A DNA stretch of 64,000 nt, from positions 6,554,103 through 6,618,102 of the forward strand of contig JABAKD010000002.1 in NCBI GenBank assembly GCA_012845835.1, read 5' to 3'. Below are positions 13,448 to 63,704 of the stretch, piece after piece. The notes beneath the pieces are model-generated. The model did not search any database. It saw only the letters and a list, made by a program, of their open reading frames with translations, and had not been told where the DNA came from. Both the position numbers and the translations under genes were made by a program. Numbering within the stretch: position 1 is the first letter of the stretch; every line of letters starts with the position of its first letter. The stretch comes from Undaria pinnatifida (lineage: Eukaryota; Sar; Phaeophyceae; Laminariales; Alariaceae).

Positions 13448-16400
13448 ATGACGACGGGCCTTGGAAAAGCGGTGGTCCTGGGCATGCTCGCTTTCAAGAT
13501 GGCCGCATCACAAGACACGGAGTCACCGAACGAGTCTATCCCTAAGCCGGAGTGCGATGCAAGCATCCCGGTTTCGATTCGGTACTCGTCGGCCACTGCG
13601 CGGTTATACGTTGTGTCGGCGGACGGTAATGCCCGTGGAGGCTGTGTGACATTGGCACAAATATGGGAAGAACGAAGAGGCAAGGCACCATTGTATGCCG
13701 TCGACGCCCAGAGCGGGAATATAACGAACAGCGCGACAGGGACGTGGTTGCTCACCGAAGAACTGTTCGTGCAGGACGGAATTACTCTCCAGGTGAGCAG
13801 CTGTTTTCCGTTTTCCTGTCTGACGCGTGCTACGATAGAGGTGCACCATTTTGTTTCAGAATCATCCTCAATTTGGGAGAATAAGACCCTCTTCCGAAAA
13901 TACAAATATTTGGAGAAAAACAAAACTAATGAAGAAATCCCATGGCCTAGGTGCACAACGAGAAAGAATCAAGCAAAAAGCAAAATGAACCTACTTCCGA
14001 CAAATTTGGAATTATGGAGCCCCGTCATTCGACAATCATTTCAGACGTAAAAGTGCTACCTATGTCGTAGAACGTATCGTCTTACGGTGTATTTACCTTT
14101 TAAAAATCAAAGGACTGTGAGTATGCTTTCCTGCATGGCTGAGGCCAACAACGAACGCCATCATCCTGGCTTGCAAGAGGTCAGGTTTACCCACACGTAC
14201 GCTGTGTCTTCCCACCGTTTCAATATTTTCAAATGCCGACGATGATGATAATCGCGTCTTGTGTGTGTTTCAGTTTGTCAACGGAGCATTACACGGACCG
14301 GTCTTGCTTCAATTTGGTCGTCCCCGCTTGTTTCGTTCATGTTCAGGTGCACGGGACCTCGGCCGGTGGCGATGCTAACGAACTACGTCTCCTCAGTACG
14401 AGCGACACTTTCATCAACCTGCGCGCTCACGGCGGAAGCCTTGATTTCTTGAGCACCAAGGTACGCCGTACGCTCTGAATCATGCGTCGGCTCGGCCAAC
14501 GTCACACTTCGTTCGACACTCGTCTTTGTAGACTCTGACAGCGTTCTGTTATGTACACGTAGTTGTGTGGCCGCGATGCGTTATTGCCCCAACAGGCTTG
14601 ATTATCGGGAAACCCAGTGCAGCGTGCCGCGCGTTACTTATTCTAGGTGCTACCTTTGCGAAACGCCAACTTATATTCTATATTTTCGTCGTGATGGCGC
14701 ATAGATGCCGTTATGTAGTTTACGTACCGGGAAACGACGACGGAGGCAGTATCGTTGACTATTCTATGAGTCCATACAAGTTCCAATAACCACTTTGACG
14801 CTGTTTGATGTCGATTTTGTTCGCTATGATCTCTGTCATGGCCACAGGCGTCCATAACGACTATCTTCTATCGTGTTGTAGGTTACCCTTCCGCCCCCCT
14901 CTCTCTGCCCGCTTTGAACGCCAGGCCAGCTGTCGGACTGCTGCCAATGTGCGTCGCTCTATATAATATTGCCGTGCTCTCGTCCTCATCGTCCCCCCGT
15001 CATGTCAGGTGTTCTCGTGGGACACCTCCACCAACGCCCCCGACGATGATCAAGAAGACGGTCGGTCGTACGTCAGCGCCGTCTCGGAAGTCATCACTGA
15101 CAACAACCAGACATGCCGAGGCAGGGCCAAGAAGAACATGGGAGAGGCGCGGATGGACATCGAGGACAGCGAAATGGGCTACCTTGGGTACCAAGGAAGC
15201 GAGGCCTACGGTCTAACGTGGAAGGTGAGATGTGCATCAACCGTCCTGGTATGAACAAGCTCAGCACGGTATCCGTAGAAAACTTTCACCGATATGCCGT
15301 TGTAACACAGCTAATACCTCACATATCTCGGAATCCGACGTGTCGACCACGGCCACCTACAGTATGTTATAATGGACGTTACGCTGATATTATGGTCATC
15401 ATAACCTTTGCCGGAACTCCATCCAAGGTTTCGTCATATTTCCCAACCGACACCCTCAAGCCTTTCACAGGTTTTGAAAATATCGTTGACCAGTATCATC
15501 AAGCAATGCACGGAGCTGGTCCCGACGGTTAGCCCTATTGAACGCACGTGATTACCATTTTGACGGATTGGAGCGCAACAGAGCTGATAAAGTAATCTGC
15601 TATTATACTACTGCATATGAATGAGCAAATTGAAAAAATATCTCCTTGTCCCACCCGCGGTCGATCTTCACTTGGACACATCGATCTTCTGACCAGGTCC
15701 GTGGGTTCTGCGTCAACAAGAGTAACCGCGATGTGTTCGACCATGTCAACGTCTACGGTAACATCTACGATTCCGACATCCACCACAACAACTTCGGGGT
15801 CTACACGTACGGCCACCAGCAGGGAGACTGGAGGAGGAACAAGATGCACAACAACAAGGGGTACGGCTTTGATCCCCACGACGACAGCGACTTCCTCACC
15901 ATCCACGACAACGAGGTCTACGACAACGGGTACCACGGCATCATCGCCTCCAAGCGCTGCAACGGAGTGTCCATCCAGGTACGACGCGTTTGGTGTTCCT
16001 CAGTCGGTATGTGTAGCAGAACGCAAAAGAAAATATCAAGGCATTGTCTTACCGAACGTGTTGGTTTGAGCCAATGCTACGACACCCACACATTGGAGGT
16101 CCACTAACACGCCAAGAATCTCCCTGCCGCGCAAGACTCTGAGCGTTCTCACCAGCACGAGCGGGGTAAACATACATGGTTCATAACAAATATTGGGCCA
16201 GAATGCCGACTGACCAATCAAGCTTATTTTCGTTGTCGACGTTCAGGGAAATGAGGTGTACGGCGGTGCTTCGACGTCTGCTGGCATATTCCTTCACCGG
16301 AGCAGCGACGACGCCGTTGTCAAGGGTGAGCAGCCAGGCGGACAGGATAGCACGCCCCTTACTATGTTGGTCACATTTCCTGAGCAGCGATATGCACAGG

Positions 16401-17705
16401 AGTTATTCGTGGTGCAGGCCACCTCCACATAACGGAAGGAACGCTTACATCATCCTCGCCGCGGTAGTGCTCGTTGTGTCGTTGAATGCTTAGCAGCCGT
16501 GGGGGTCTTGTACAAGTGTGGTGGTATGCCTCTCGCCGGAGTTTGTTCCAGCTAAGAGCTTGCCTATCGAAATAGTGCGGGGATCCCCATGCGAAGAGGT
16601 CGCGGCCTACATGTGCACCACTAATCTCCTGTAGGGGACATATCAAGACTCGATACTACACGTTACAACTAAACCGTGTCAACGGATGGTCGGGACCGAT
16701 GGAAGAGCCAATCATGAATATGGCCCTTCAGGAGTGCCGACAATCGATGTTGGCCCGACTGAGTACTGCTGGTATTTCGAAGCACCTATACCTCTGTGCG
16801 TATCCAGATTTACTCGGTACCAGCTAACTGTTGTTATCGTTGCCGCCTCTCTTTTCGAACTCGACCCCACCCTACTTCGACCCCGCGCCAGGAAACTATG
16901 TCCACGACAATGGCGACGCCGGACTGGCAATGATGGAGTCATTCAATGCCGACGTGTCCAACAACGTCTTCGAGAACAACAAATATGGCGTGAGAATCTC
17001 CGTAGGGTGCGGCCACAACGTCTTCTCCAAGAACGCCATTAGCGGCTCTGCCAAGTGAGATCATATTCTATTGTCCGAATCAGAGGCAGCGAGTATAACC
17101 CTTTGTACTCTCTTTCATGCGTAACGCATGCGTCTATCTCGTGTACACTCAGCCACGACTGTGTTTAATGCGTCTATTGTCTACGTGCGATGCACGTCAA
17201 ACCACTAGGTTATCTTAAATCAGCACTGTACCAACGGCGGTGTTGCTCGCCATGTGCGTTGAAGCTGTGTCCGTGCACCCGTGACTCCATTCCATCCCAT
17301 TACAACCTCGTTGCGATATACACGCAAATGCCAATCATCAAGGACAAAATTGACCAACTATACCTTCTGCGCCTTACTGTTGCTTGTCAACATTTCCTGC
17401 TCAGATACAACGCCTACTCGTACCTTGGATCCGACGCACCCCACGTGGTCGAGTCGGGGCGGTCCCAGGACAACCTATTCCAGGAAAACACCATCGTCGG
17501 AAGCCTAGAGACCCTCAAGATCATGGATGCCGACGGTACCCAGTTTGTCGGCAACTCGTTTGAGGAGGCTGTGACTATCCGTTTCGATGATGCGGCGAGA
17601 ACCGTGATGTCAGGCAACACTGGTCTCAACAACACCAAACTGAAGGTCAACAATGGCGCTACGTTCGACGAGAGATCTGATTACGGTTTCGAGCCTGTCT
17701 GCTAA
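13448..17705 (+). CDS. MC5E: Mannuronan C5-epimerase, unit 1 copy (7 exons, intact)
   Basis: The predicted secreted enzyme epimerises D-mannuronate to L-guluronate in alginate. Exons joined at GT-AG sites that keep frame: 13448-13792, 14347-14460, 15009-15224, 15697-15978, 16247-16325, 16892-17054, 17405-17705. The 1500-nt CDS gives 499 residues. Residues 1-22 are a weakly hydrophobic signal-like N-terminus. Exon 4 carries YGFDPHDDSD, with the AlgG-type catalytic DPHD motif at residues 284-287. Exons 4-7 repeat N-rich rungs such as NNVFENNKYGV, typical of a parallel beta-helix. There are no WSC or other accessory domains. The start is the first ATG of the exon 1 frame, in context CACCAACATGA, and the same ATG is used in all three copies. 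Intron 1 contains a dispersed repeat also found upstream of the gene. A private feature is the loss of about 98 bp some 270 bp upstream of the ATG. Family assignment is strong; substrate is inferred from the family. Confidence 0.93.
13823..14110. repeat. Dispersed repeat R285, in intron 1 of unit 1 epimerase
   Basis: Shares CGTGCTACGA, CTCAATTTGGGAG, AATCCCATGGCCTAGG, GGAGCCCCGTCATTC with 9789-10075 at visibly lower identity than between units, so the two copies are older than the tandem duplication. Confidence 0.75.
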
Positions 17706-20700: not shown

Positions 20701-20743
20701 TAGACAGCAATGGTTTATTGCGTCGACCATAGACGAGGGGGGC

Positions 20744-23769: not shown

Positions 23770-26546
23770 TCATTGTTTTTTCGGAGAAAAGGCAGCGCGG
23801 GGCGTGGTTCCAGGAAAGTTCGCTTCAAACAACCAGTAGATAGGCTCATATTCATAGTCAGATTTCTCATCCAACGAACCGCCGTTGTCGACCTTCAGCT
23901 TGATGTTGATGAGGCCAATGTCGCCTGACATTGCGGTTCTCGCCGCGTCATCGAAAGGGATTGTCACAGCGTCCTCTAGCAAATTGCCAGCAAAATGGGT
24001 CCCGATGGCATCCATGACCTTGAGGGTCTCTACACCTCCGACGATGTGGTTTTCCTGGAATAGGGTTTCCTGCGCCCGGACTCTTACCACATTGGGCTCG
24101 GTGAATCCAAGGTACGATCAGGTGTTGTACCTGACCAAGCGAGGGGTGAAAACGAATGGTCGTGCGGTGAAGGAGCTACGGTTGGTTCAAACCTGACATT
24201 GCGGTTCTCGCCGCGTCATCGAAAGGGATTGTCACAGCGTCCTCTAGCAAATTGCCAGCAAAATGGGTCGCGATGGCATCCATGCCCTTGAGGGTCTCTA
24301 CACCTCCGACGATGTGGTTTTCCTGGAATAGGGTTTCCTGCGCCCGGACTCTTACCACATTGGGCTCGGTGAATCCAAGGTTCGATCAGGTGTTGTACCT
24401 GACCAAGCGAGGGGTGAAAACGAATGGTCGTGCGGTGGAGGAGCTACGGTTGGTTCAAATTTGTCATTGCTTGATATTTTGAGGTTTGCGAGTGTATCGC
24501 ACCGAGAGAGACACACACTCAAAGCACGTGTAATGGGTATCAGTGTGGAGAGGGTTATAGCGTTTGCCTTTGTTAGGTAACCTTGAAATTGCCTCTCTTG
24601 ATAGAGCCGGAGGTGGTGTTCTTGGAGGAGACGTTGTGACCGCATCGCAAGGCAATCTTCACGCTGCACTTGTTGTTCTCGAAAGCGTTGTCGAACACGT
24701 CGGCGTCGAAGGCCTCCATCATTGGCAGTTCGTTATTGCCTTTGTCGTGGACCTGGATTCCTGGAGTAAAAGAAAAGCTGGGGGACGTCGAGTGAAAACG
24801 ATGAAATGGGAACGGGAGCATTGTTTGTTGGTACCTCGCACATTCGAAACTCACCGTGCGTATCGATGACAGAATTCCAGCAGTACCCAGTCGGGCCATC
24901 ACCGATCGTTGGCGTCCATTAGAGATTCGAGGTAAATATGTTTCCCGCTTACTCCTGCAGCTCCGACCATCGGTAAAAGCGTTCACGCAAGAACGGTTCG
25001 TGCCGTGATCTTCGACTATTTTTTGTCCGAACTATGTGCTTCACACGTGGACCACCCTCGCAACCAGGGCAGCCCCAGATTTGCTCGTTTTCCCTGGTTT
25101 CAGGTTGTCTCCTCCCGTCGAGAGGCAGCGGTGGACACTTGTACTAGTCCCCCACCTCTGCCGAACATCCACCCACGAAGTGGGCAACATCGCGGTGCGG
25201 ACGAAGTATGCGTGGGTTCCGTCATCTCGTGGTAGGCTGCACAACAAACAAAGCATACTCAGGCTATGCGCAATGAAGTGACGGTCATGCCGACCTATGC
25301 GTTCCGCTGTTCACTTTGACAACAGCGTCGTCAATGCCCCGGTAAAGCAATATAGCGGAGCACACTAGGAGCAGGACGACGACCGACTTTGGTAACATAG
25401 GGTTCAAAATATGAACTGATAGAGTGGGGGGTTCGCGTATGGATGATCAATAGGTCAGCAATGGGTAAGGATCCAATCACTGGCTATAACGAAAAATAAC
25501 TGTCTTGAATCCAACGTCGTCCATGCGATTATGGTAACGTTAGTTTGAAGAGGGCGAACGAAACGGCTGCAGGTTTATGACGATTTGTCGCCGGAACGAC
25601 ATCTGGGTTAAATTGTGAGGTAGCTATCATAACATGTACATGAATGCGACTCAAGCTTTGTAGCGGCCTTAATAATAGTATAATCAGGGTAATTACTGCC
25701 AAAACAAATGTGCCAATCGAAACTTGGTGCGAAATATACACGAGGTTTCCGCCGTGGGCGCGAAGGCTGATGACTGCGCCACTCGTAGCATAACCGCTAG
25801 GCGAGGTACCGTGCACCTGACCATGAACAAAATGAGTGGGGACAAGGTAATGTAATGAACCAGAAGATCCGATGTATTTAATCGCCCAGATATCTACTAC
25901 TGGTGTGAACATAAGTTTACAACTACGGAACTATCCTATTCTCATTCCAAGCAGTCCTTCTGGAAAACATGAATGCAGTTCGGAACACGGTCAGACGAAC
26001 TTTCCGTTGGTAGCACCCGATAAAGAGAAAATGCTAAGGAAATCACCCGCGTATGTGGGAAAATCATACTGCGTGCCGACGAGGATGGGGGCGCTCGGCT
26101 TGGTCTCATACAGCGCAACGACAACACTCATGGTCCTGCCTCCATGCACGGCACCAATACACTGGCACAAGCACAAACAATTCAAGCGGCAATGACCTAC
26201 CTCGAGAATGATACCGTCTTGAGCGAGCACTTCGTCGATGAGCAGCCATATCCATATTGCGCTGTGACTGATGATGCCGCTCTCGGGGTTGATCGCGTAC
26301 ACGGATGTCTTGCCTCCGTGCTCTTCCCATACTCGTGTCAATGTCTCACAGCCGCCACAGGTGTTCCCACCCGCGGACACAACCTGCAGTTGCACAGAGA
26401 CGGATGAATATCAAAACAAATACCGGGAGGCTCTCCTCGCACTCCGTCTTGGGGATGGACTCGTTTGGTTACGCGGTGTCTTGTGGGGCGGCTACCTTGA
26501 AAGCGAGCATGTTCAGGACACCCTCTTTTCCAAGGGCCGTCGTCAT
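23770..26546 (-). pseudogene. Mannuronan C5-epimerase pseudogene, unit 2
   Basis: Unit 2 counterpart of the catalytic-exon-less pseudogene. Exon 1 26546-26201, exon 2 25816-25724, exon 5 about 25384-25315, exon 6 24760-24598, exon 7 24130-23770. It shares the missing exons 3-4, the 346-nt exon 1 and the exon 7 TGA with the unit 1 copy. Private damage: TAA at codon 26 of exon 1 (26471-26469), and a 268-bp tandem duplication that adds a second partial exon 7 starting at 24398 and carrying the same TGA. Its 5' end lies inside a 530-bp sequence triplicated to the right, so extra copies of the start region occur with ATG at 27075 and 27605. Confidence 0.87.
23931..24466. repeat. 268-bp tandem duplication of pseudogene exon 7, unit 2
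   Basis: TTGCGGTTCTCGCCGCGTC starts at 23931 and again at 24199; both copies run to the region beyond the exon 7 acceptor. Units 1 and 3 have one copy. Confidence 0.9.
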
Positions 26547-28035
26547 CTTGGTACTACGTGACGTTCGGAAGATGCCGTGCCTTCTGCGGTGTAGTTGTTG
26601 AGATTTGTGTCGTTAAGCTATTGGCGAGGATTGATCGTTCGATTGTTAAGCTAATGCGGCTTTGATCAATGGCAGTGAAGGGGGGGGGGCGGGTTACGAT
26701 AACTTGAGCAACAACACTACGTTGGCAATCGGCGCCCTGTATCGGAGTGGTACCAAAACAGATCGTGATCAGGAAATGATGGTGGGCTGGCAGCCAGGCA
26801 GGGAAGCAGGCGGGCTAGCGGGAGGGAATAATACACATGGAATATTTCTCGTTGTGTTTCAACTGCCGCACTGAGCAGAACCTGAATGTAACTGTATACA
26901 AGACCACGTTCTGATCGCTGGTCAAGTCGATTCTAAGACATTTCGGAACGAATAGTGACAGTCAACATCGTGGAATCTTGGGGATGGACTCGTTTGGTTA
27001 CACGGTGTCTTGTGGGGCGGCTACCTTGAAAGCGAGCATGTTCAGGACACCCTCTTTTCCAAGGGCCGTCGTCATCTTGGTACTACGTGACTTTCGGAAG
27101 ATGCCGTGCCTTCTGCGGTGTAGTTGCTGAGATTTGTGTCGTTAAGCTATTGGCGAGGATTGATCGTTTGATTGTTAAGCTAATGCGGCTTTGATCAATG
27201 GCAGTGAAGGGGGGGGGGGCGGGTTACGATAACTTGAGCAACAACACTACGTTGGCAATCGGCGCCCTGTATCGGAGTGGTACCAAAACAGATCGTGATC
27301 AGGAAATGATGGTGGGCTGGCAGCCAGGCAGGGAAGCAGGCGGGCTAGCGGGAGGGAATAATACACATGGAATATTTCTCGTTGTGTTTCAACTGCCGCA
27401 CTGAGCAGAACCTGAATGTAACTGTATACAAGACCACGTTCTGATCGCTGGTCATGTCGATTCTAAGACATTTCGGAACGAATAGTGACAGTCAACATCG
27501 TGGAATCTTGGGGATGGACTCGTTTGGTTACACGGTGTCTTGTGGGGCGGCTACCTTGAAAGCGAGCATGTTCAGGACACCCTCTTTTCCAAGGGCCGTC
27601 GTCATCTTGGTACTACGTGACTTTCGGAAGATGCCGTGCCTTCTGCGGTGTAGTTGTTGAGATTTGTGTCGTTAAGCTATTGGCGAGGATTGATCGTTTG
27701 ATTGTTAAGCTAATGCGGCTTTGATCAATGGCAGTGAAGGGGGGGGGGCGGGTTACGATAACTTGAGCAACAACACTACGTTGGCAATCGGCGCCCTGTA
27801 TCGGAGTGGTACCAAAACAGATCGTGATCAGGAAATGATGGTGGGCTGGCAGCCAGGCAGGGAAGCAGGCGGGCTAGCGGGAGGGAATAATACACATGGA
27901 ATATTTCTCGTTGTGTTTCAACTGCCGCACTGAGCAGAACCTGAATGTAACTGTATACAAGACCACGTTCTGATCGCTGGTCAAGTCGATTCTAAGACAT
28001 TTCGAAACGAATAGTGACAGTCAACATCGTGGAAT
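26448..28035. repeat. 530-bp tandem triplication, unit 2
   Basis: Three near-identical blocks (26448-26976, 26977-27506, 27507-28035). Each runs from within pseudogene exon 1, through its ATG, to a GTGGAAT junction. Units 1 and 3 have one copy. A poly-G run of 9-11 occurs in each block and varies in length. Confidence 0.93.
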
Positions 28036-39667: not shown

Positions 39668-40199
39668 TGTTCGTGATAGCGGCATGTGTGTATCAACTGT
39701 ACTGCGGTGAAACTCTGATTGGTTGGTTTGAATAGCAGAACTGTTGATTGTATGTTGTTGTACCAGAATACTCTTCTTGTGGTGCTACGGTATTTTGGTA
39801 GATTGTACATGTGCACGAGTAATACATCGGACCGTAGTGGTGTGTACGGTACGTTGGTATGTCGGTACGTTGGACATATTGACGAGTAGGAACATTCCTG
39901 TAGTGTTGCTAACACGATATAGCTTGTCTCAACGAACAGCCTAGCAATAAGTTACAGTTACATACGTTGTGTCACGGAGGCAAGTTACACGGATCGTCTC
40001 GTGGTATCACCCACGAGCAGTCCCACGGGTATGTACGAGTAGGCACTATGCGAGGAGGTTTAGGTATTCGACTACGAGCGGTTGTTACTGGGCTGTGGAG
40101 AGTTGGCCCACATGACCCACTCCACTTTCTGACCTGTCTCTCCAGACATTGGTCTCTCTAATATAATACCTTTCTCCAGAAGCCACTGATTTACCAACA
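39668..40199 (+). repeat. Left (5') LTR of the copia element
   Basis: 532 bp, starts TGTTCGTGATAGC and ends TTTACCAACA. It should hold the promoter and polyadenylation signals of the element; TATAATA-like sequence occurs near 40160, but I cannot assign a start site. Confidence 0.96.
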
Positions 40200-40287
40200 C
40201 GCTATAGCGCTATCGGTCGACTGCTGTACGTCCCCCTGGACTGTGTTCGACGAGACTGTGAGGGAGGCTTGATCAACCGGCCTCGTC

Positions 40288-40755
40288 ATGGCTGAACAGG
40301 AGGGAGATGACCCTGCGGCAAGCCAACAGGGTGACCCGCAGGGCTTTGGTGAGAGAATGGATTCCTTAGAGTCTCGAGTGTCTCAAATGCTGGATATGTT
40401 TTCTAACCAGCAGCAGATGCTCCAGACAGTTGTTGAGACACACCAGAGGGGGAATGTGGAGTCCTCTAGTTCGCGTGCTGCGCCGCGAGGCATCGAACTA
40501 GAGTCTGGTGTGCACCAATCGGGTGCCGCCGGTAGGACCGCGGGGAGTACGGGAGGCGATACCCCAGGCTTTGGCGTGTCTGACATGAGGGTTGGGAGTA
40601 GGGGTGTTGTAGACCCAGGCTTGAACCCGCGTGTTTCTGATGAGAATCGTTCCTCTGTTTCTGCAGTAAATTTTGGTTCGGTTGACGGGACTGTTGGTGG
40701 GGCTTTAGGTAGCCAGTCCTCTGTTCCGCCCACTACCTCAGCAAGTGAGTGGTAG
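40288..40755 (+). CDS. gag: Copia gag N-terminal segment, ended by in-frame TAG
   Basis: 155 codons from ATG 40288 to TAG 40753-40755. The product has an acidic Q/S-rich start (MAEQEGDDPAASQQG), a short heptad-like stretch (MDSLESRVSQMLDMF) and a low-complexity G/S/V-rich remainder. The frame is the same as that of the downstream gag-pol frame: 40288 and 40816 differ by 176 codons exactly. No early ATG exists downstream of the stop. The simplest reading is that this is the true N-terminus of one 1728-residue polyprotein now cut by an amber mutation; programmed readthrough is the alternative. Its acidic start is the only likely initiation site. Confidence 0.8.
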   Translation: MAEQEGDDPAASQQGDPQGFGERMDSLESRVSQMLDMFSNQQQMLQTVVETHQRGNVESSSSRAAPRGIELESGVHQSGAAGRTAGSTGGDTPGFGVSDMRVGSRGVVDPGLNPRVSDENRSSVSAVNFGSVDGTVGGALGSQSSVPPTTSASEW

Positions 40756-43700
40756 GGAAAAGTCGATAGTGGGAACACACTGATCCCAGCGGCTGACAGT
40801 AGTTCGGGGGAGAGCTTGGGTGGGGGTCTTTTCAAGAAAGTTCCCAAGGCTCCTGAATTTATCGGTACTGATGTATCGTATCCTTCATGGTCGCAGAATT
40901 TTCTGCTCAAAGCTCGTCACTACAATCTGAGCGAGCCGTTCACCTGTGATATCGACATTAAAATCGCCGACGTTAATTTCGACTTGACCCCTTGGGTAGA
41001 GAAGGGATACAGCGTTGGTGTACTGCGTCAGCATGAGATTGCTTGGTGGTTTCTGTTCGACTGCTTGAAGAAAGACAGCCACAAAAACATGGCAGGGCAA
41101 GCTGGTTCCCCGTATAAGGCTTTTCGCGCGCTCAAAGATCACTTTCTACCGTTGAGTCAGAGTCAAATTCGAGTGCAGGAAGAAAAACTGAAGTCTCTGC
41201 GCATGCGTCCCCACGAGAATCCCACAACTTTCATTTCATCCATCAGAGAGACGCTTGGTGTGTTGACCATGCTTGAAGTAACGAAGGATGATCGTGAAGT
41301 GTGTAATCTCATGCTGGAAGGACTGTCCCCCGAGTACAAGACTTTACGTGAGACTCTTGTGGTGTTCTGTTCGAATGACCCCTCTTTCATCGAGACTAAA
41401 GTGCGTGAGCGGTACCTAGACTTGCAAGCACAGGGTGGTTCTAAGAAGCAGAATAGTGTTGCTCTGGTGTCTAGGCCTGCGAAGAAGAAGAGTAACTTCA
41501 AGAAGCACAACAAGCAAAAGTCTAACTCGGAGTCTGATCCCTCGAATAAGTCTTTTCAGGGGAGGTGTTACAAGTGTGGGGAGGTGGGTCACATGAAGCT
41601 CGACTGCAAGGCTCGCATCATCCCTCATCCTTCCCAGACTGGAAAGCCCGAGGCCGGCGAGAATGAGAGCGGTGAGCAGTGTGCTATTCCTGATTCGTAT
41701 CTGGTGTGCAGAAATGGTAGTTACCGCATGAGTGATGACTGCCAAAAGGTGTTGCTTGCAGCATGTCGTAAGGAAGTGGTCTTGAAGGCGTGTGATGATT
41801 TGAGTAGGATGTGGTATGATGTCTCTGGTCTGAAGTGTCTGATGACGTCCCGTGATGATCTGATTCTGAGCGCCGTCAGTAATGATATGATCCTGAAAGC
41901 TGTCAACAAGGCTAGATATGTCGAGGATTGGTATGCTGACACAGGCACTTCATATCACATGACTGATTCCCTGTCTTGCATGAGAGACTTGAAGCCTTGT
42001 CACAGAAGTGCGAATGGAATTGGTGGCGTGTCTTGTGAAGTAGCTTGCTCCGGAACGCTAGACTTGGTATTTGTGACTGCTGACAGTGAGTTCTCCGTGG
42101 AATTGAAGAACGTATTGTACTCTCCCAACTTGGGGTATAATCTCTTTTCTCCGAGTGCAGAGTTTGATGGTGAGTCATGGAATGGCCTTGGTGGTTCTAA
42201 TGGTGTTATGACTGCATTCAATGGACAAGTAACTTTTCAGAACTTCGATGGCATGCTGATTGCGTCTGCGTATCGCCTAGGAGAAGCCTCTGTTGGTACG
42301 GTGTTGGCTGCTCTCACTCCTGCCAACCCCAAGCATGAAACTACGATGGATATCAACGATTTCCACAATATTTGTGCACATTCGCACGAGGGTCTGCTTC
42401 GCACTACTGCAAAGCGATTAGATACCAAGTTGGTTGGTGACATGCATGCTTGTTCAGGGTGTTCGATGTCGAAGACTATTCGGAAAGAAATCGTTCGGGA
42501 AACTAAAACTCGATCGGATAAAAAGTTGGGCAGAGTTTTTGTTGACCTGGGAGGAAGGAAGGCCTTTGCGTCCGTAGGGGGAAAACATTACCCCATGATT
42601 GTGAAGGATGATTTCACGAGACGTGCATGGCTGTATTTCCTGAAAAATAAATCAGACGCTGGCAGTGCTTTCCGGAGTTTTCTTGCGAGTGTGCGTGCTG
42701 ATGGTGTCCCGTCATTGGTTGAGATTGTTAGGTATGACAATGGTGGGGAGTTTTTCGAGGGGAAGTTTGCATCTGTGTGCAACGAGCTTTCGATCAAACA
42801 AGAGTTCACACCGGCTTATAGTCCGCAATATAATGGTGTTGCAGAGCGTGGGCTGGAATTGATAGAGGAGGCCGCGATGGCGGCTCGTATTCAAGCAAAA
42901 ATTATTTTTGGGCATGTACAGTTACCTAAGACTGATAAACTCTGGGCTGAGGCTATGCACTGGGCTTGCGAAGCGATGAATCACACTGCGTGTTCTGCTA
43001 ACCCTGAATCCAAATCGCCGTATGAAATGTGGTATGGTGAACCTCGTCCCGCTAGACCGTATCCGTTTTTGAAGCCCGCCTACTGTAGGTGGCAGCGACC
43101 GTCAAAGCTGCTGCCGAAGGGTGAGAGTTGTTTCTATTTCGGTCCTTCGAGAGACCACCGGCGTGATTGTCATAGAGTACTTACGAGCGCTGGTACTATT
43201 CAAGAAACGAGGGATGTGACGTGGGAGGTGCTGCCGTCACAGCTCCCTCCGCTGCAACCTTCTTTGCCGATAGAGGTAGCAGAGGAGGGAGGGGAGGATA
43301 GTGACGACGATGTTGAAACCGAGATATGGCCGCTTGTGGGAAGAGGAGTCGCTCACACACTTTTGAAACGTGATGCCGTGCCCTCTGGTGCGGGAGTCGA
43401 GGAGGTTGAGAGTGTTGGCGCAGGTAGTATAGGCCCGTCCTTTTCTGTTCCATCTTCCCCTGCTGAACCGTCTGCCCCCGTGAACATTTCTTCTGGTAGT
43501 GTAGCTCCTTCTGTGTCTTCGCCTGTGAATGACGGGGAGGGCCAGGGAGGGCATGAATCAGGAGAGGTAGAGATGGGGGATCTGGGAGGGGATGATGAGG
43601 TAGAGTCGATGGGGCAGGGAGGGCATGATGATGAAGAGTCGATTGGGTCGGGAGGACTGGTAGAGGCGGAGGCATCCCCTCCAGCCGCTCGTCCTCCGCG

Positions 43701-45474
43701 GCATGTAGCCGAGCTTGCTGACTTTAATACTTCCGCGCGTGAAAATGATGAAGTGAGAGAAGGTAGGACTCGCGCGCAAACTCGTGCAGTCAACCAGCAG
43801 AGTGTACCCGGCCTCATGGCCACCCTAGGACCCATCTTTGCGACAGAGGTCGTGTACTCATTGTTGTCGGAGCAGAGAGCAGGTGATGAGACGGAATTGC
43901 CGAAAGAACTGGTTCAGGATGTAGAATCGGAGCCTGGTAGTTATCAGGAAGCCCAGCGTTCGAAGTACGCTAAGATTTGGGAAGGAGCCAGGTCTGCCGA
44001 AGTTGAAGGCTTGATAAGAGCAGGAACGTTCACGTTGGCAGTAAAAGTCCCAATAGGCTGTAATGTGATTGCTGCTAGATGGGTTTTCAAGTGGAAAGCA
44101 GACGAAACAGGAAAGATAGTGAAGGCCAAGGCTAGGCTTGTAGCGAAGGGCTTCAAGCAGAAGTATGGTGTGGATTATCTTGAGACATTCTCGCCTACCG
44201 CAAATGCTGCATCTTTACGATTGCTGATAATGTTGGCGTGTTTGTACAATTTGAAATTACTCCACTGGGATATTGAGCAAGCATTTGTTCAGTCGGAATT
44301 GGATCACGAGGTGTTCATGAAGTTGCCTCCTGGCTGCGGGTCGATGTCAGGAAAGGTTGTCCGTTTGAAAAAAAGTTTGTACGGATTGAAGCAGGCTTCT
44401 AGGACATTTTACAAGAGGCTGGTGTCGGAACTGAAGAGGATTGGTTTTGAGCAGTCAATGTCTGACCCCTGTGTCGTGCGTTTCATGATGGGAGACGAGG
44501 TATTGGGGATGGTCGCGATCCACGTGGATGACATTCTGTATGCAGGAAGTAAGAGCCTTGCCAAGGTGGTTGTGGCAGCACTTGGTGACTCTCTTCCTAC
44601 GAAGGACTTGGGGGAGGTCAAGTTCTTTCTAGGTTGTGAATATATTCGCGACCGTGAGGCTGGTACGATTGAAATTTCTCAGGAAAGTTATATCAGGAGT
44701 GTTCTCGAGAGATTCAATATATGTCGCACCAGCTCGATCCCTGCTTCCCTTGCCAATGATAACAGGTCCGTGATGGAGGATGAGGGGGCAGGAGATGTGC
44801 CGTTCCGAGAGGTGGTGGGGAGCCTGATGTGGATCGCCAGCCAGACAAGGCCCGACATCGCGAATGCTGTGCGGGCGGTGGCGAGGCACTCTCACGAACC
44901 AAAGAGGAGCCACTGGAAGGCAGCTCAGAAGATTCTCAATTATCTTCTGGAAACGGCGCATCTGACTTTGAAGTTCAAGCAGGATAGTTCGGTAGACGCA
45001 GCCACGTTGGTGTATGTAGATGCTGACTTTGCAAGTAGGGCCACTGACCGTAGATCAGTTTCGGGTGCGATGGTTTTCGTGGCGGCGATGCTTGTAGTTT
45101 GGATTTCTAGGACGCAGAAATGCGTTTCACAGTCAACTTCAGAAGCAGAGTATCTTGCGATGGGAGATGGTGTAAAGGTGGCTCTGTTTGTAAACGGAAG
45201 GCTTCAGTTCCTGAGGCCTAGTGCAAAGCCTCGTAAGATAGACGTCCTTGAAGACAACGAGGGGGCGATTGCGCTCGCAGAGAACCCGCTGAGCTCGAGT
45301 AGGAGTAGACACATCGATGTGAGGCACCACTTTCTTAGGAATCTGACCAAGGAGGGTGTGATCGAAGTCACCCACGTCCCCAGCAAGAAACAACACGCGG
45401 ACGTCCTCACGAAGGCGTTGCCAAGAGATCTTTTTCAAGTTCACCGCGACTTTGCACTTGGTATCAAGAAGTAG
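40756..45474 (+). CDS. gag-pol: Copia gag-pol polyprotein (continues from gag after TAG)
   Basis: Open without interruption from the codon after the amber to the stop at 45474. A copia-type gag core comes first (EFIGTDVSYPSWSQNF near 40852), then a CCHC zinc knuckle CYKCGEVGHMKLDC at 41566. The aspartic protease has WYADTGTSYHMT with Asp at 41938. A pre-integrase H/C zinc region (CSGC near 42450) is followed by the integrase catalytic triad: Asp in FVDLGG at 42544, Asp in RYDNGGEF at 42736, Glu in NGVAERG at 42844 (D-35-E spacing). The RT has FKWKADETGKIVKAKARLVA, SLYGLKQASR and the active site HVDDILYAG at about 44521. RNase H has YVDADF, TSEAEY and EDNEGAIALA. The family catalytic residues are all present, so the element may supply activities in trans despite the amber. 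Confidence 0.96.
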   Translation, partial: GKVDSGNTLIPAADSSSGESLGGGLFKKVPKAPEFIGTDVSYPSWSQNFLLKARHYNLSEPFTCDIDIKIADVNFDLTPWVEKGYSVGVLRQHEIAWWFLFDCLKKDSHKNMAGQAGSPYKAFRALKDHFLPLSQSQIRVQEEKLKSLRMRPHENPTTFISSIRETLGVLTMLEVTKDDREVCNLMLEGLSPEYKTLRETLVVFCSNDPSFIETKVRERYLDLQAQGGSKKQNSVALVSRPAKKKSNFKKHNKQKSNSESDPSNKSFQGRCYKCGEVGHMKLDCKARIIPHPSQTGKPEAGENESGEQCAIPDSYLVCRNGSYRMSDDCQKVLLAACRKEVVLKACDDLSRMWYDVSGLKCLMTSRDDLILSAVSNDMILKAVNKARYVEDWYADTGTSYHMTDSLSCMRDLKPCHRSANGIGGVSCEVACSGTLDLVFVTADSEFSVELKNVLYSPNLGYNLFSPSAEFDGESWNGLGGSNGVMTAFNGQVTFQNFDGMLIASAYRLGEASVGTVLAALTPANPKHETTMDINDFHNICAHSHEGLLRTTAKRLDTKLVGDMHACSGCSMSKTIRKEIVRETKTRSDKKLGRVFVDLGGRKAFASVGGKHYPMIVKDDFTRRAWLYFLKNKSDAGSAFRSFLASVRADGVPSLVEIVRYDNGGEFFEGKFASVCNELSIKQEFTPAYSPQYNGVAERGLELIEEAAMAARIQAKIIFGHVQLPKTDKLWAEAMHWACEAMNHTACSANPESKSPYEMWYGEPRPARPYPFLKPAYCRWQRPSKLLPKGESCFYFGPSRDHRRDCHRVLTSAGTIQETRDVTWEVLPSQLPPLQPSLPIEVAEEGGEDSDDDVETEIWPLVGRGVAHTLLKRDAVPSGAGVEEVESVGAGSIGPSFSVPSSPAEPSAPVNISSGSVAPSVSSPVNDGEGQGGHESGEVEMGDLGGDDEVESMGQGGHDDEESIGSGGLVEAEASPPAARPPRHVAELADFNTSARENDEVREGRTRAQTRAVNQQSVPGLMATLGPIFATEVVYSLLSEQRAGDETELPKELVQDVESEPGSYQEAQRSKYAKIWEGARSAEVEGLIRAGTFTLAVKVPIGCNVIAARWVFKWKADETGKIVKAKARLVAKGFKQKYGVDYLETFSPTANAASLRLLIMLACLYNLKLLHWDIEQAFVQSELDHEVFMKLPPGCGSMSGKVVRLKKSLYGLKQASRTFYKRLVSELKRIGFEQSMSDPCVVRFMMGDEVLGMVAIHVDDILYAGSKSLAKVVVAALGDSLPTKDLGEVKFFLGCEYIRDREAGTIEISQESYIRSVLERFNICRTSSIPASLANDNRSVMEDEGAGDVPFREVVGSLMWIASQTRPDIANAVRAVARHSHEPKRSHWKAAQKILNYLLETAHLTLKFKQDSSVDAATLVYVDADFASRATDRRSVSGAMVFVAAMLVVWISRTQKCVSQSTSEAEYLAMGDGVKVALFVNGRLQFLRPSAKPRKIDVLEDNEGAIALAENPLSSSRSRHIDVRHHFLRNLTKEGVIEVTHVPSKKQHADVLTKALPRDLFQVHRDFALGIKK

Positions 45475-45536
45475 AAGTCTGAGTTTTGTTTTTGTTTTTG
45501 TTTGATATGTATTTGGTCTGGTAGATACAACAGCCC

Positions 45537-45546
45537 CTAGGGAGGG
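45537..45546 (+). other. Polypurine tract of the copia element
   Basis: Purine-rich AGGGAGGG immediately abuts the right LTR, the position where plus-strand DNA synthesis of LTR elements is primed. Confidence 0.7.
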
Positions 45547-46078
45547 TGTTCGTGATAGCGGCATGTATGTATCAACTGTACTGCGGTGAAACTCTGATTG
45601 GTTGGTTTGAATAGCAGAACTGTTGATTGTATGTTGTTGTACCAGAATACTCTTCTTGTGGTGCTACGGTACTTCGGCAGATTGTACATGTGCACGAGTA
45701 ATACATCGGACCGTAGTGGTGTGTACGGTACGTTGGTATGTCGGTACGTTGGACATATTGACGAGTAGGAACATTCCTGTAGTGTTGCTAACACGATATA
45801 GCTTGTCTCAACGAACAGCCTAGCAATAAGTTACAGTTACATACGTTGTGTCACGGAGGCAAGTTACACGGATCGTCTCGTGGTACCACCCACGAGCAGT
45901 CCCACGGGTATGTACGAGTAGGCACTATGCGAGGAGGTCTAGGTATTCGACTACGAGCGGTTGTTACTGGGCTGTGGAGAGTTGGCCCACATGACCCACT
46001 CCACTTTCTGACCTGTCTCTCCAGACATTGGTCTCTCTAATATAATACCTTTCTCCAGAAGCCACTGATTTACCAACA
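45547..46078 (+). repeat. Right (3') LTR of the copia element
   Basis: 532 bp, same ends as the left LTR. Six differences by eye: one A/G near the start, three C/T in the stretch around 45670-45680, and one C/T each near 45887 and 45940. Confidence 0.96.
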
Positions 46079-50809: not shown

Positions 50810-52718
50810 CTAGACAGAAGGCAGCGTGGGACGTTGTTCCAGGAAAGCTTGCTTCAACAACGAGTAGATAGGCCCGTATCCATAGTCAGATTTCTCATCC
50901 AACGAAGCGCCGTTGTCGACCTTCAGCTTGATGTTGTTGAGGCCAATGTTGCCCGACATTGCGGTTCTCGCCGCGTCATCGAAAGGGATTGTCACAGCGT
51001 CCTCTAGCGAGTTGCCAACAAAATGGGTCCCGTTGGCATCCATGACCTTGAGAGTCTCTGCACCTCCGACGATGTGATTCTCCTGGAATAGGGTTTTCTG
51101 CGCCCTGACTCTTACCACATTAGGCTCGGTGAATCCAAGGTACGATCAGGTGTTGTACCTGACCAAGCGAGGGGTGAAAACGAATGGTCGTGCGGTGGAG
51201 AAGCTACACACGTGGACCACCCTCACGACCAGGGAAGCCTCAGATTCGCTCGTTAGCCCTGTTTCAGGTTGTCTCCTCCCATCGAGAGGCAGCGGCCGCC
51301 GTGGACACTTGTACTAACCCCTCACCTCTGCCGAACACCCATCCACGAAGTGGGCAACATCGCGGTGCGGACGAAGTAGGCGTGGGTTCCGTCATCCCGT
51401 GGTAGGCTGCACAACAAACAGAGCATACTCAGGCTATGCGCGCAATGAATTGACGGTCATGCCGACCTATGCGTTCCGCTGTTCACTTTGACAACAGCGT
51501 CGTCAATGCCCCGGTAAAGCAATATAGCGGAGCACACTAGGAGCAAGACGACGACCGACTTTGGTAACATAGGCTTCAAATATGAACAGATAGAGAGGGG
51601 GTTCGCGTATGGACGGTCAATAAGTAAGCAATGTGTAAGGCTCCAATCACTGCCTATAACAAATAATAACTGTCTTGGATCCAACGTCATCCATGAGGTT
51701 ATGGTAACGTTAGTTTAAAGAGGGTGAACGAAACGGCTGCAAGTTTATGACGATTTGTCGCCGGAACGACATCTGGGTAAAATCGTGAGGTAGCTATAGT
51801 AACATGTACATGAATGGGACTCAAGCTTTGTAGCGGCCTTAATGATAGTATAATCAGGGCAATTGCTGCCAAAACAAATGTGCCAATCGAAACTTTGTGC
51901 GAAATATACACGAGGTTTCCGCCGTGGGCGCAAAGGCTAATGACTGCGCCACTCGTAGCATAACCGCTAGCCGTTGTACCGTGCACCTGGCCATGAACAA
52001 AATGAGTGTGGACGAGGCAATGTAATGAACCAGAAGATCCTGTGCATTTAATCGCCCGGAAAGCTACCACTGGTGTGAACAAGTTTAGAACTACGGAACT
52101 GTCATATTCTCATTCCAAGCAGTCCTTGCTTCTGGAAAACGTTAATGCAGTTCGGAACACGGTCAGAATAATTTGCCATTGGTAGCACCCGATGAAGACA
52201 AAATGCTAAGGAAATTACCCGCGTATGTGGGAAAATCGTACTGCGTGCCGGCGAGGATGGGGGCGCTCGGCATGGGCTCAAGCAGCGCAACGACAACACT
52301 CATGGCCATGCCTCTATACACGGCACCAACACACTGGCACAAGCACACACAATTCAAGCGGCATTGACCTACCTCGAGAATGATACCGTCTTGAACGAAC
52401 ACTTCGTCGTTGAGCAACCATGCCCATATTGCGCTGTTACTGATGATGTTGCTCTCGGGGTTGATGGCGTACACGGGTGTCTTGCCTCCGTGCTCTTCCC
52501 ACACTCGTGCCATTGTCGCACAGCCGCCACGGGTGTTCCCACCCGCGGACACAACCTGCAGTTGCACAGAGACCGATGAATATCGAAACAAATACCGGGA
52601 GGCTCTCCTCGCACTCCGTCTTGGGGATGGACTCGTGTGGTTACACGGTGTCTTGTGGGGTGGCTACCTTGAGAGCGAGCATGTTCAGGACAGCCTCGTT
52701 TCCAAGGGCCGTCGCCAT
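50810..52718 (-). pseudogene. Mannuronan C5-epimerase pseudogene, unit 3, also missing exon 6
   Basis: Unit 3 counterpart. Exon 1 52718-52373 begins MATALGNEAV and is 346 nt. Codon 26 is TAA (52643-52641), as in unit 2. Exon 2 is 51986-51894, exon 5 about 51557-51487, and exon 7 51158-50810 with the shared TGA. Compared with unit 2, about 595 bp (24448-25042 there) are absent at about 51208, which removes exon 6 entirely. The exon 7 tail is shifted out of the ancestral frame near its end. Exons 3 and 4 are missing as in the other copies. This is the most degraded of the three. Confidence 0.85.
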
Positions 52719-57763: not shown

Positions 57764-57888
57764 CAATAACAACAAAAACAGCAACAACAACAAAAACAGC
57801 AACAACAACAACAGCAACAACAACAACAACAACGACGACGACAACAACAACAACGACAACAACAACAACAGCAACAACAACAACAACG
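57764..57888. repeat. CAN trinucleotide microsatellite, unit 3
   Basis: About 125 bp of CAA/CAG/CGA triplets, the longest of the three alleles. Confidence 0.9.
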
Positions 57889-59100: not shown

Positions 59101-59444
59101 CGGCCCCTTTGGCAAACTCGACCCAGTCGCGTAGGGGTCAAGATATATTTTCTGCGACATATATCCGATATAGAGTACTATGTATTCTGGTGCCGCGGTG
59201 GTCGGTCAAAACGTGTGACATACATCCCCAGCTGCATCAATCACTCCCGTGCACATAACACGTACATATGCTGGCATAACCGTGCTACAAAGCCCTGTGA
59301 CGAGTTTGTACGTCCTTGACATTCACGGGCTTCCTCCGTGCACTTCCGTTGAACACCCAGATCTCAACGACCAGCGAACGAAGCTAAGTCCCAGCTCAAC
59401 ACCACAGCAGGCACCACCTCTTCCTAACAACACATCGCACCAAC

Positions 59445-62400
59445 ATGACGACGGGCCTTGGAAAAGCGGTGGTCCTGGGCATGCTCGCTTTCAAGATGGC
59501 CGCATCACAAGACACGGAGTCACCAAACGAGTCTATCCCTAAGCCGGAGTGCGATGCAAGCATCCAGGTTTCGATTCGGTACTCGTCGGCCACTGCGCGG
59601 TTATACGTTGTGTCGGCGGACGGTAATGCCCGTGGAGGCTGTGTGACATTGGCACAAATATGGGAAGAACGAAGAGGCAAGGCACCATTGTATGCCGTCG
59701 ACGCCCAGAGCGGAAATATAACGAACAGCGCGACAGGGACGTGGTTGCTCACCGAAGAACTGTTCGTGCAGGACGGAATTACTCTCCAGGTGAGCAGCTG
59801 TTTTCCGTTTTCCTGTCTGACGCGTGCTACGATAGAGGTGCACCATTTTTTTTCAGAATCATCCTCAATTTGGGAGAATAAGACCCTCTTCCGAAAATAC
59901 AAATATTTGGAGAAAAACAAAACTGATGAAGAAATCCCATGGCCGAGGTGCACAACGAGAAAGAATCAAGCAAAAAGCAAAATGAACCTACTTCCGACAA
60001 ATTTGGAATTATGGAGCCCCGTCATTCGGAAATCATTTCAGACGTAAAAGTGCTACCTATGTCGTAGAACGTATCGTCTTACGGTGTATTTACCTGTTAG
60101 AAATCAAAGGACTGTGAGTATGCTTTCCTGCATCGCTGAGGCCAACAACGAACGCCATCATCCTGGCTTGCAAGAGGTCAGGTTTACCCACACGTACGCT
60201 GTGTCTTCCCACCGTTTCAATATTTTCCAATGCCGACGATGATGATATTCGCGTCTTGTGTGTGTTTCAGTTTGTCAACGGAGCATCACACGGACCGGTC
60301 TTACTTCAATTTGGTCGTCCCCGCTTGTTTCGTTCATGTTCAGGTGCACGGGACCTCGGCCGGTGGCGATGCTGACGAACTACGTCTCCTCAGTACGAGC
60401 GACACTTTCATCAACCTGCGCGCTCACGGCGGAAGCCTTGATTTCTTGAGCACCAAGGTACGCCGTACGCTCTGAATCATGCGTCGGCTCGGCCAACGTC
60501 ACACTTCGTTCGACACTCGTCTTTGTAGACTCTGACAGCGTTCTGTTATGTACACGTACTTGTGTGGCCGCGATGCGTTATTGCCCCAACAGGCTTGATT
60601 ATCGGGAAACCCAGTGCAGCGTGCCGCGCGTTACTTATTCTAGGTGCTACCTTTGCGAAACGCCAACTTATATTCTATATTTTCGTCGTGATGGCGCATA
60701 GATGCCGTTATGTAGTTTACGTACCGGGAAACGACGACGGAGGCAGTATCGTTGACTATTCTATGAGTCCATACAAGTTCCAATAACCACTTTGACGCTG
60801 TTTGATGTCGATTTTGTTCGCTATGATCTCTGTCATGGCCACAGGCGTCCATAACGACTATCTTCTATCGTGTTGTAGGTTATGCTTCCGCCCCCCTCTC
60901 TCTGCCCGCTTTGAACGCCAGGCCAGCTGTCGGACTGCTGCCAATGTGCGTCGCTCTATATAATATTGCCGTGCTCTCGTCCTCATCGTCCCCCCGTCAT
61001 GTCAGGTGTTCTCGTGGGACACCTCCACCAACGCCCCCGACGATGATCAAGAAGACGGTCGGTCGTACGTCAGCGCCGTCTCGGAAGTCATCACTGACAA
61101 CAACCAGACATGCCGAGGCAGGGCCAAGAAGAACATGGGAGAGGCGCGGATGGACATCGAGGACAGCGAAATGGGCTACCTTGGGTACCAAGGAAGCGAG
61201 GCCTACGGTCTAACGTGGAAGGTGAGATGTGCATCAACCGTCCTGGTATGAACAAGCTCAGCACGGTATCCGTTGAAAACTTTCACCGATATGCCGTTGT
61301 AACACAGCTAATACCTCACATATCTCGGAATCCGACGTGTCGACCACGGCCACCTACAGTATGTTATAATGGACGTTACGCTGATATTATGGTCATCATA
61401 ACCTTTGCCGGAACTCCATCCAAGGTTTCGTCATATTTCCCAACCGACACCCTCAAGCCTTTCACAGGTTTTGAAAATATCGTTGACCAGTATCATCAAG
61501 GAATGCACGGAGCTGGTCCCGACGGTTAGCCCTATTGAACGCACGTGATTACCATTTTGACGGATTGGAGCGCAACAGAGCTGATAAAGTAATCTGCTAT
61601 TATACTACTGCATATGAATGAGCTAGTTGAAAAAATATCTCCTTGTCCCACCCGCGGTCGATCTTCACTTGGACACATCGATATTCTGATCAGGTCCGTG
61701 GGTTCTGCGTCAACAAGAGTAACCGCGATGTGTTCGACCATGTCAACGTCTACGGTAACATCTACGATTCCGACATCCACCACAACAACTTCGGGGTCTA
61801 CACGTACGGCCACCAGCAGGGAGACTGGAGGAGGAACAAGATGCACAACAACAAGGGGTACGGCTTTGATCCCCACGACGATAGCGACTTCCTCACCATC
61901 CACGACAACGAGGTCTACGACAACGGGTACCACGGCATCATCGCCTCCAAGCGCTGCAACGGAGTGTCCATCCAGGTACGACGCGTTTGGTGTTCCTCAG
62001 TCGGTATGTGTAGCAGAACGCAAAAGAAAATATCAAGGCATTGTCTTACCGAACGTGTTGGTTTGAGCCAATGCTACGACACCCACACATTGGAGGTCCA
62101 CTAACACGCCAAGAATCTCCCTGCCGCGCAAGACTCTGAGCGTTCTCACCAGCACGAGCGGGGTAAACATACATGGTTCATAACAAATATTGGGCCAGAA
62201 TGCCGACTGACCAATCAAGGTTATTTTCGTTGTCGACGTTCAGGGAAATGAGGTGTACGGCGGTGCTTCGACGTCTGCTGGCATATTCCTTCACCGGAGC
62301 AGCGACGACGCCGTTGTCAAGGGTGAGCAGCCAGGCGGACAGGGTAGCATGCCCCTTATTATGTTGATCACATTTCCTGAGCAGCGATATGCACACGAGT

Positions 62401-63704
62401 TATTTGTGGTGCAGGTCACCTCCACATAACGGAAGGAACGCTTACATCATCCTCGCCGCGGTAGTGCTCATTGTGTCGGTGAATGCTTAGCAGCCGTGGG
62501 GGTCTTGAAGAAGCGTGGTGGTATGCCTCTCGCCGGAGCTTGCTCCAGCTAAGAGCTTGCCTATCGAAATAGTGTGACATCCCCATGCGAAGAGGTCGCG
62601 GTCTACATGTGCACCACTAATCTCGTGTAGGGGACATATCAAGACTCGATACTACACGTTACAACTAAACCGTGACAACCGATTGTCTGGACCGATGGAA
62701 GAGTCAATCATGAATATGGCCCTTCAGGAGTGCCAACGATCGGTGGTGTTGACCCAACTGAGTACTGCTGGCATCTCGAAGCGCCTATACCTCTGTGCGT
62801 ATCCAGATGTACTCGGTACCAGCAAACTGTTGTTATCGTTGCCGCCTCTCTCTTCGAACTCGACCCCACCCTACTTCGACTTCGCGCCAGGCAACTATGT
62901 CCACGACAATGGCGACGCCGGACTGGCAATGATGGAGTCATTCAATGCCGACGTGTCCAACAACGTCTTCGAGAACAACAAATATGGCGTAAGAATCTCC
63001 GTAGGGTGCGGCCACAACGTCTTCTCCAAGAACGCCATCAGCGGCTCTGCCAAGTGAGATCATATTCTAGAGTCCGAATCAGAGGCAGCGAGTATAAGCC
63101 TTAGTACTCTCTTTCATGCGTAACGCATGCGTCTGTCTCGTGCCCACGCAGCTACGACTGCGCTTAATCCGTCTATTGTCTACGTGCGATGCACGTCAAA
63201 CCACTGGGTTACCTTGAACCAGAACTGAACTAAAGGCGGTGTTGCTCGCCATGTGCGTTGAAGATGTGTCCGTGCACCCGTGACTGTATTCCATCCCATC
63301 ACACGCTTGTTGCGATATACACGCAAATGCCAATCATAAAAGACAAAATTGACCAACTATACCTTCTGCGTCACACAACCGCTTGTCAACATTGCCTGCA
63401 CAGATACAACGCCTACTCGTACCTTGGGTCCGACGCACCCCACGTGGTCGAGTCGGGGCGGTCCCAGGACAACCTTTTCCAAGAAAACACCATCGTCGGA
63501 AGTCTAGAGACTCTCAAGATCATGGATGCCGACGGTACCCAGTTTGTCGGCAACTCGTTTGAGGATGCCGTGACTATCCGTTTCGATGATGCGGCGAGAA
63601 CCGTGATGTCAGGTAACACTGGCCTTAACAACACCAAACTGAAGGTCAACAACGGCGCTACGTTCGACGAGAAATCTGATTACGGTTTCGAGCCCATCTG
63701 CTAA
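59445..63704 (+). CDS. MC5E: Mannuronan C5-epimerase, unit 3 copy (7 exons, intact)
   Basis: Third complete copy. Exons: 59445-59789, 60344-60457, 61006-61221, 61694-61975, 62244-62322, 62891-63053, 63404-63704. Lengths and splice phases match the other two copies and give 499 residues ending in FEPIC. The DPHD motif at residues 284-287 and the surrounding YGFDPHDDSD are intact. Differences from unit 1 are about five residues, including IPVS to IQVS in exon 1. Exon 3 and exons 5-6 encode identical protein in all three copies. As in the others, intron 1 holds the roughly 285-bp dispersed repeat, and a dead LINE 3' end lies antisense upstream. The gene ends 296 bp before the window edge, so its downstream neighbourhood is not visible. 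Confidence 0.93.
59820..60107. repeat. Dispersed repeat R285, in intron 1 of unit 3 epimerase
   Basis: Counterpart of 13823-14110 in unit 3. Confidence 0.75.

Follow-up and report, generated by a model that had tools for sequence, protein, structure and literature searches.

Alginate gel strength depends on guluronate, which is made by mannuronan C5-epimerases. The closest described counterpart of the locus considered here is found in Saccharina japonica, in a paper that we take to be by Ye et al. In the sections of that paper drawn on here (Nat Commun 2015, PMC4421812), S. japonica has 105 MC5E genes, 43 with >85% identity, clustered on seven scaffolds, and the authors read these clusters as recent tandem duplication. 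A survey of brown algal ManC5-E (BMC Genomics 2024, PMC11468063) reports, in the parts used here, a DPHD motif in all of its ManC5-E, amplification of the family in Laminariales among others, and a mean of 27 members per genome; the word "tandem" is absent from its main text. In the open-access papers searched, we found no paper that joins mannuronan C5-epimerase with gene conversion and none that joins C5-epimerase, Undaria pinnatifida and tandem duplication.

Here we analyse an epimerase array in U. pinnatifida. The window is a stretch of 64,000 nucleotides (C26:6554103-6618102); 60 kb were read on either side of it, with negative window coordinates lying to its left, and the genome searched comprises 511,146,479 bases in 68 contigs. 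A preliminary description of the window had proposed three almost identical, intact epimerase genes in tandem, explained by either very recent amplification with selection on the protein or ongoing gene conversion.

Live genes and enzyme identity

Four live genes make up the array, three of them (A, B and C) in the window and a fourth (D) to its left:

13448..17705, plus strand: gene A, predicted mannuronan C5-epimerase, 499 aa; spliced model, GT-AG throughout, no internal stops
13448-13792, 14347-14460, 15009-15224, 15697-15978, 16247-16325, 16892-17054, 17405-17705, plus strand: exons of gene A
34272..38539, plus strand: gene B, 499 aa; spliced model
34272-34616, 35178-35291, 35843-36058, 36531-36812, 37082-37160, 37725-37887, 38239-38539, plus strand: exons of gene B
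59445..63704, plus strand: gene C, 499 aa; spliced model
59445-59789, 60344-60457, 61006-61221, 61694-61975, 62244-62322, 62891-63053, 63404-63704, plus strand: exons of gene C
-8561..-4310, plus strand: gene D, fourth intact copy, 4.3-8.6 kb left of the window; spliced model

In the spliced models of A, B and C, exon lengths are 345/114/216/282/79/163/301 nt in each gene, all 18 introns are GT-AG, and each gene has 499 codons plus a stop with no internal stop. The proteins differ at 6 (A-B), 5 (A-C) and 5 (B-C) of 499 residues. Variable residues are 41, 106, 126, 231, 444, 454, 490 and 498, and the protein is invariant across exon 3 (aa 154-225) and exons 5-6 (aa 320-400). The models agree with the preliminary description on three intact seven-exon genes of equal exon lengths and 499 residues with 5-6 pairwise differences, and on the protein identity of exons 3 and 5-6. 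Its tandem array stands for A, B and C but was incomplete, in that D, three dead inverted copies and a larger cluster were missed; the observation was correct but clipped at the window edge because D sits outside it. Between D and each of the other three proteins there are 13-14 residue differences. Six variable residues fall within the first 21, all six setting D apart from the other genes, and this N-terminal stretch looks by eye like a putative signal peptide.

Gene A, the sole copy scanned against Pfam, matches Beta_helix PF13229 (5.8e-21) and NosD PF05048 (5.6e-16), which is the right-handed beta-helix of brown algal ManC5-E. Six distinct chains of solved bacterial C5-epimerases match A by sequence (phmmer E from 7.6e-12 for 4ozy to 2.4e-8), which indicates homology, and the catalytic region is aligned. 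All four live genes carry the ManC5-E motif DPHD, each a single time (residue 284 in A). Family membership suggests that the four enzymes convert mannuronate to guluronate in alginate, and the genes are presumably expressed.

Array architecture and dead inverted copies

The array runs D(+), I1(-), A(+), I2(-), B(+), copia element, I3(-), C(+), where I1-I3 are dead inverted epimerase copies. Starts of successive live genes are 22.0, 20.8 and 25.2 kb apart, the last step taking in the 6.4-kb copia element. Blocks of ~5-7 kb recur in the same orientation at 91-96% identity on one contig, which is the colinear repetition that defines tandem segmental duplication. Other features between the live genes are:

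1789..4222, minus strand: I1, dead inverted epimerase copy; pieces of exons 7, 6, 2 and 1; exon 7 with a stop; exon 1 with an extra base
4580..7194, no strand: 2.6-kb insertion in unit A; missing at the homologous place beside C and, by block matches, beside B
23839..26546, minus strand: I2, dead inverted epimerase copy; pieces of exons 7, 6, 2 and 1; stops; repeated exon 7 piece at 24191-24400
26447..28035, no strand: 530-bp unit in three copies at ~99% identity beside I2; the dead exon 1 start recurs every 530 bp
39668..46078, plus strand: LTR retrotransposon of copia type, downstream of gene B; LTR identity 98.9%; CACGG on either flank
50867..52718, minus strand: I3, dead inverted epimerase copy; pieces of exons 7, 2 and 1; stops

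Exons 3, 4 and 5 were not found in I1, I2 or I3 at E up to 0.01, nor was exon 6 in I3, and a whole-genome search with the catalytic exon (exon 4) gave no match in the I1 span. The exon 7 stop and the extra exon 1 base are common to all three dead copies. The 60 kb right of the window yielded no inverted copy. In a tree of exon 1 (26 rows), A, B, C and D group together (100/96) with A, B and C nested inside (98/94), and I1-I3 form a clade of their own (100/100); support is weak at several deep forks. We take this tree to mean that the dead partners were duplicated together with the live gene.

The copia element has an open frame of 1552 aa. Unit A has an empty site at this point, where the alignments of A, C and D run through without a break; since the element (LTR difference 1.1%) is missing from those units, its insertion in unit B postdates the duplication. 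Within the insertion at 4580-7194, a minus-strand ORF is present twice in tandem (98% alike); it contains a GDGACLLRCIS stretch, which presumably resembles OTU proteases; a Pfam scan of this ORF gave nothing at E 0.01. Six of the 48 listed ORFs were scanned against Pfam, of which five gave nothing at E 0.01 and the remaining one is the copia polyprotein.

The wider epimerase cluster

The exon 4 search gave 105 matches across the genome. Fifty-nine of these, on C26, C19 and C32, are full-length and stop-free and include one (I0) that is nevertheless dead by other lesions. Matches of at least 100 bits number 69: 23 on C26 within 537 kb, 37 on C19, 5 on C32 and 4 elsewhere; additional arrays thus exist beyond C26. 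Two groups are referred to below:

C26:6109490-6646334 (6.109-6.646 Mb), minus and plus strands: epimerase cluster that includes the array; 23 catalytic-exon matches reach 100 bits or more
C19:2963500-3019300: L051-L053, three epimerase units ~24.4 kb apart, with 0-4 substitutions in about 6989 sites

Several runs of matches of at least 100 bits show repeated steps of about 18-28 kb, with wider and narrower ones between. In the C26 cluster the matches are minus-stranded on the left and mostly plus-stranded on the right, with a switch near 6.30-6.32 Mb, as if part of the cluster had once been inverted. Around the array, K (from -52889) and H (from 90308) have all seven exons without a stop, as exon matches rather than spliced models. 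Copies I0, E, F and G are damaged: DPHD is altered in G and E, and I0 has DLHD plus frame breaks. With 13448-14050 as query and 40 of 1552 candidates scored, four places match at 92% or more, which are the array's own genes, and no second haplotype copy was seen among the scored candidates. With 14569-15240 and 40 of 66 candidates scored, the four genes match at 93-100% and the others at 86% or less.

Around exon 1, identity among ten loci from the left part of the C26 cluster spans 99.9% to 76%. L042 (C26:6199967-6203246), one of the ten, shows 51 gaps, 31 of them a single base long, where its relative L039 has 6. It looks like unpolished long-read sequence, so that the assembly is of uneven reliability and frameshifts in that part should not be read as pseudogenes. 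The C19 units L051-L053, compared over 7 kb per unit, also show a few gaps, mostly of one base, and their near-identity may reflect either very recent triplication or an assembly artefact. Copy counts are provisional because the L042 stretch looks unpolished and the C19 triplet may be an artefact. Amplification ages differ, because the C19 triplet has 0-4 substitutions while its fourth unit, L054, is 12% away; units are 0-0.06% apart in the C19 triplet and about 4-12% apart at synonymous and intron sites in the present array.

Divergence and purifying selection

The dN/dS comparison proposed in the preliminary description gives 0.06-0.15 in all six pairs of A, B, C and D (dS 0.053-0.121; dN 0.0043-0.0121), and synonymous and nonsynonymous rates differ in each pair (Fisher p 1.4e-7 to 2.2e-15). 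Introns differ by 3.5-9.1%, and their Jukes-Cantor (JC) distances of 0.036-0.097 are close to dS. Whole-gene divergence is 2.8-6.9% with 0-8 gaps per copy and pair. Since dS is about equal to intron divergence while dN/dS is low, the near-identity of the live proteins is the result of purifying selection on copies that are not very recent. Indels per kb are 0 in exons, 0.7-4.0 in introns, 2.0-5.6 in the upstream block and 5.6-7.9 in the 3' flank, which bears out the earlier remark that the surrounding intergenic DNA has many more indels; the proximal 5' flank (258 sites) likewise has 0. Equal divergence of exons and intergenic DNA, named in that description as the outcome that would count against it, was not found. 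An apparent divergence of 14-21% between the 5' flank of A and those of B, C and D is taken to arise from the alignment at 13100-13190, a stretch in which ~90 bases of C are missing from A; recounted from 13190, the 5' flanks of A, B and C differ by 1.9-2.3%.

The dead copies provide a control for selection on the protein. Differences at codon positions 1/2/3 are 3/6/4 (I1-I2), 13/7/6 (I1-I3) and 14/7/4 (I2-I3) in dead exon 1, and 3/7/5, 4/9/8 and 3/8/7 for the same pairs in dead exon 7, so that no third-position excess appears in exons 1 and 7 of I1-I3. Live exon 7 gives 0/2/5 to 1/1/12, the latter for A-C. Changes in live exon 1 are few among A, B and C, and comparison with D lacks a clear third-position excess (A-D 6/3/7); this exon cannot show such an excess because its changes are too few. 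The selection on the protein that had been suspected earlier is borne out by the low dN/dS in six of six pairs and by the lack of a third-position excess in the dead copies.

Purifying selection on each of four intact copies also fits a reading in which the array is kept for gene dosage, with unit number tuning guluronate content. Such selection has other possible reasons as well, and one unit is a small share of the 59 of 105 full-length, stop-free exon 4 matches spread over three contigs; we regard this reading as doubtful. Much less probable is that the copies are alike simply for want of time to diverge. Proteins that differ at only 5-6 of 499 residues would suit it, and near-identical units such as L051-L053 exist elsewhere in the assembly, but the introns of A, B, C and D are 3.5-9.1% apart, and the copia insertion, absent from A, C and D, is itself younger than the duplication. 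With synonymous divergence of 5-12% and intron divergence of 4-10%, the "very recent amplification" of the preliminary description is not supported for this array. The part of PMC10254074 used here puts the mutation rate of Ectocarpus at 4.07e-10 per site per generation (interval 4.93e-11 to 1.47e-9) and that of a Scytosiphon cross at 1.22e-9; a distance of 0.07 would correspond at these rates to some 86 and 29 million generations, respectively, although kelp rates may differ. We take from this only that the array duplications are not very recent.

Exchange tracts between copies

Two tracts interrupt the divergence of A, B and C:

7195..16340, no strand: A/C exchange tract, A side; partner about 53079-62.3 kb; right edge about 16.14-16.34 kb, around exon 5
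13190..13990, no strand: short tract of ~0.8 kb in which B is as near A and C as A is to C; covers exon 1 with the proximal 5' flank and the beginning of intron 1

The A/C tract, ~9 kb long, is firmly established. Noncoding difference between A and C is 2.5% inside it and 8.4% to its right, with a change point at A 16344 (0 of 300 permutations); in bins of 500 alignment columns, A-C divergence is 0.4-5.3% at A 7.2-16.1 kb, 4.0% in the next bin and 5-9% past 16.6 kb. On the tract's left side, divergence between the homologous stretches 2724-4579 and 51207-53075 is 9.5%. In the three-way comparison of A, B and C, site patterns at 13190-16140 join A with C in 122 cases against 15 and 16, and are mixed (78, 62 and 102) right of 16140.

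The short tract uniting B with A and C rests on a noncoding scan and on its edges. A and B differ there at 9 of 450 noncoding sites against a mean of 33.9, and the edges (13.19-13.98 kb) are sharp and visible in noncoding DNA too. A minimum as low in a 450-site window arose in 0 (A-B), 1 (B-C) and 1 (A-C) of 2000 permutations. The same scan gave no significant patch in pairs with D (A-D 148, B-D 731 and C-D 238 of 2000) over 12.4-18.6 kb, a span of 3928-3932 sites against 9678-9776 for pairs of A, B and C. A run test that includes exons and looks for the longest stretch of agreement gave, for four copies and 5000 permutations, A-C 0, B-C 16, A-D 28, A-B 54, C-D 99 and B-D 163; for A, B and C alone, A-C 0, A-B 57 and B-C 3707 of 5000 (the last not significant); and over 7300-18600, A-C 5, A-B 8 and B-C 799 of 2000 (the last again not significant). 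Identity is patchy beyond chance in A-B, B-C and A-C by the noncoding scan and in A-C by the run test. Pairs with D may carry weak exchange signals in the run test that includes exons.

Both tracts are probably products of conversion or crossover. Promoter constraint could contribute to the low divergence among A, B and C at 13.19-13.99 kb, but exchange is favoured because D differs there by 8-10%, a value that is not significantly different from that of its intron 1. Part of intron 1 (13821-14050) matches many other contigs at 74-77% and is a dispersed repeat of ~230 bp, inside which the short tract ends.

Significant patchiness among A, B and C would also be expected if gene conversion alone kept the genes identical. 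Conversion on that scale would homogenise introns and synonymous sites too, and these are 4-12% apart against 0.4-1.2% at nonsynonymous sites; noncoding scans of pairs with D, moreover, revealed no significant patch. Homogenisation throughout the array was rejected on the same grounds, dS (0.053-0.121) and intron distances (0.036-0.097) being far from zero, and it is hardly credible as the cause. The earlier suggestion of gene conversion survives for local patchy tracts, formed by conversion or unequal exchange, and fails as the chief reason for the proteins' near-identity, given that divergence at synonymous sites is about that of introns.

Origin of the array

It is very probable that the locus is a tandem array of diverged live genes held by purifying selection, in which later patchy exchange has overwritten tracts. 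The repeating module is ~19-22 kb long (copia element excluded) and carries one live mannuronan C5-epimerase gene, with one dead inverted copy between successive live genes. The array probably arose within the large brown algal epimerase cluster, most simply via repeated unequal exchange. Its live copies are now about 4-12% apart at synonymous and intron sites, and purifying selection has held their proteins nearly identical. Later exchange between units, by gene conversion or unequal crossover, then probably overwrote local tracts, and dead relatives in and around the array show birth-and-death turnover. This mechanism of amplification and exchange is our reconstruction from the assembled sequence.

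An assembly artefact or a string of alternative haplotypes, to which the poorly polished L042 in the same cluster, copy number known only as assembled and the possibly artefactual C19 units might point, is most improbable here, because gene divergence among A, B, C and D is 2.8-6.9%, with 0-8 gaps per copy and pair, against a U. pinnatifida heterozygosity of 0.48% in the part of PMC7058681 used here, and because insertions private to single units tell the units apart; the outcome that the preliminary description had feared was not found in the assembly, given 3-7% gene divergence and these private insertions.

Kelp epimerase loci might act as copy-number engines, in which modules of ~20-25 kb on several chromosomes amplify at different times, exchange tracts and shed dead copies; individuals and populations would then vary in copy number and M/G ratio. 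We offer this as a speculation that is unlikely to hold.

Comparison with known systems

Dead copies between the live genes serve as an internal control, which attributes the near-identity of the proteins to purifying selection; the duplicates themselves are not very recent, and patchy exchange comes in addition. Protein identity should accordingly not be read as recency. Bacterial mannuronan C5-epimerases (PDB 4ozy, 4nk6, 2pyg and 5lw3, which we take to be AlgG and AlgE) belong to the beta-helix family, as does gene A, and their DPHD region aligns with gene A in three alignments; they are distant from it by sequence (E 2.4e-8 to 7.6e-12), and the algal gene has seven exons. The DPHD motif is common to A, B, C and D and to the ManC5-E covered in the consulted parts of PMC11468063, and the present genome has more catalytic-exon matches, 59 of 105 being full length without a stop, than the mean of 27 members given there. 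Tandem expansion in Saccharina (2015, PMC4421812) and amplification in Laminariales (PMC11468063) are already known from the parts of those papers used here, and the array is a fairly ordinary case of both. Like the S. japonica clusters, as far as the consulted sections describe them, it consists of tandemly expanded kelp epimerases; it differs in that the dead-partner module, neutral divergence, selection and exchange tracts are measured here. What this analysis adds to the known expansions is a resolved module with dead partners, a selection test with an internal control, and exchange tracts.
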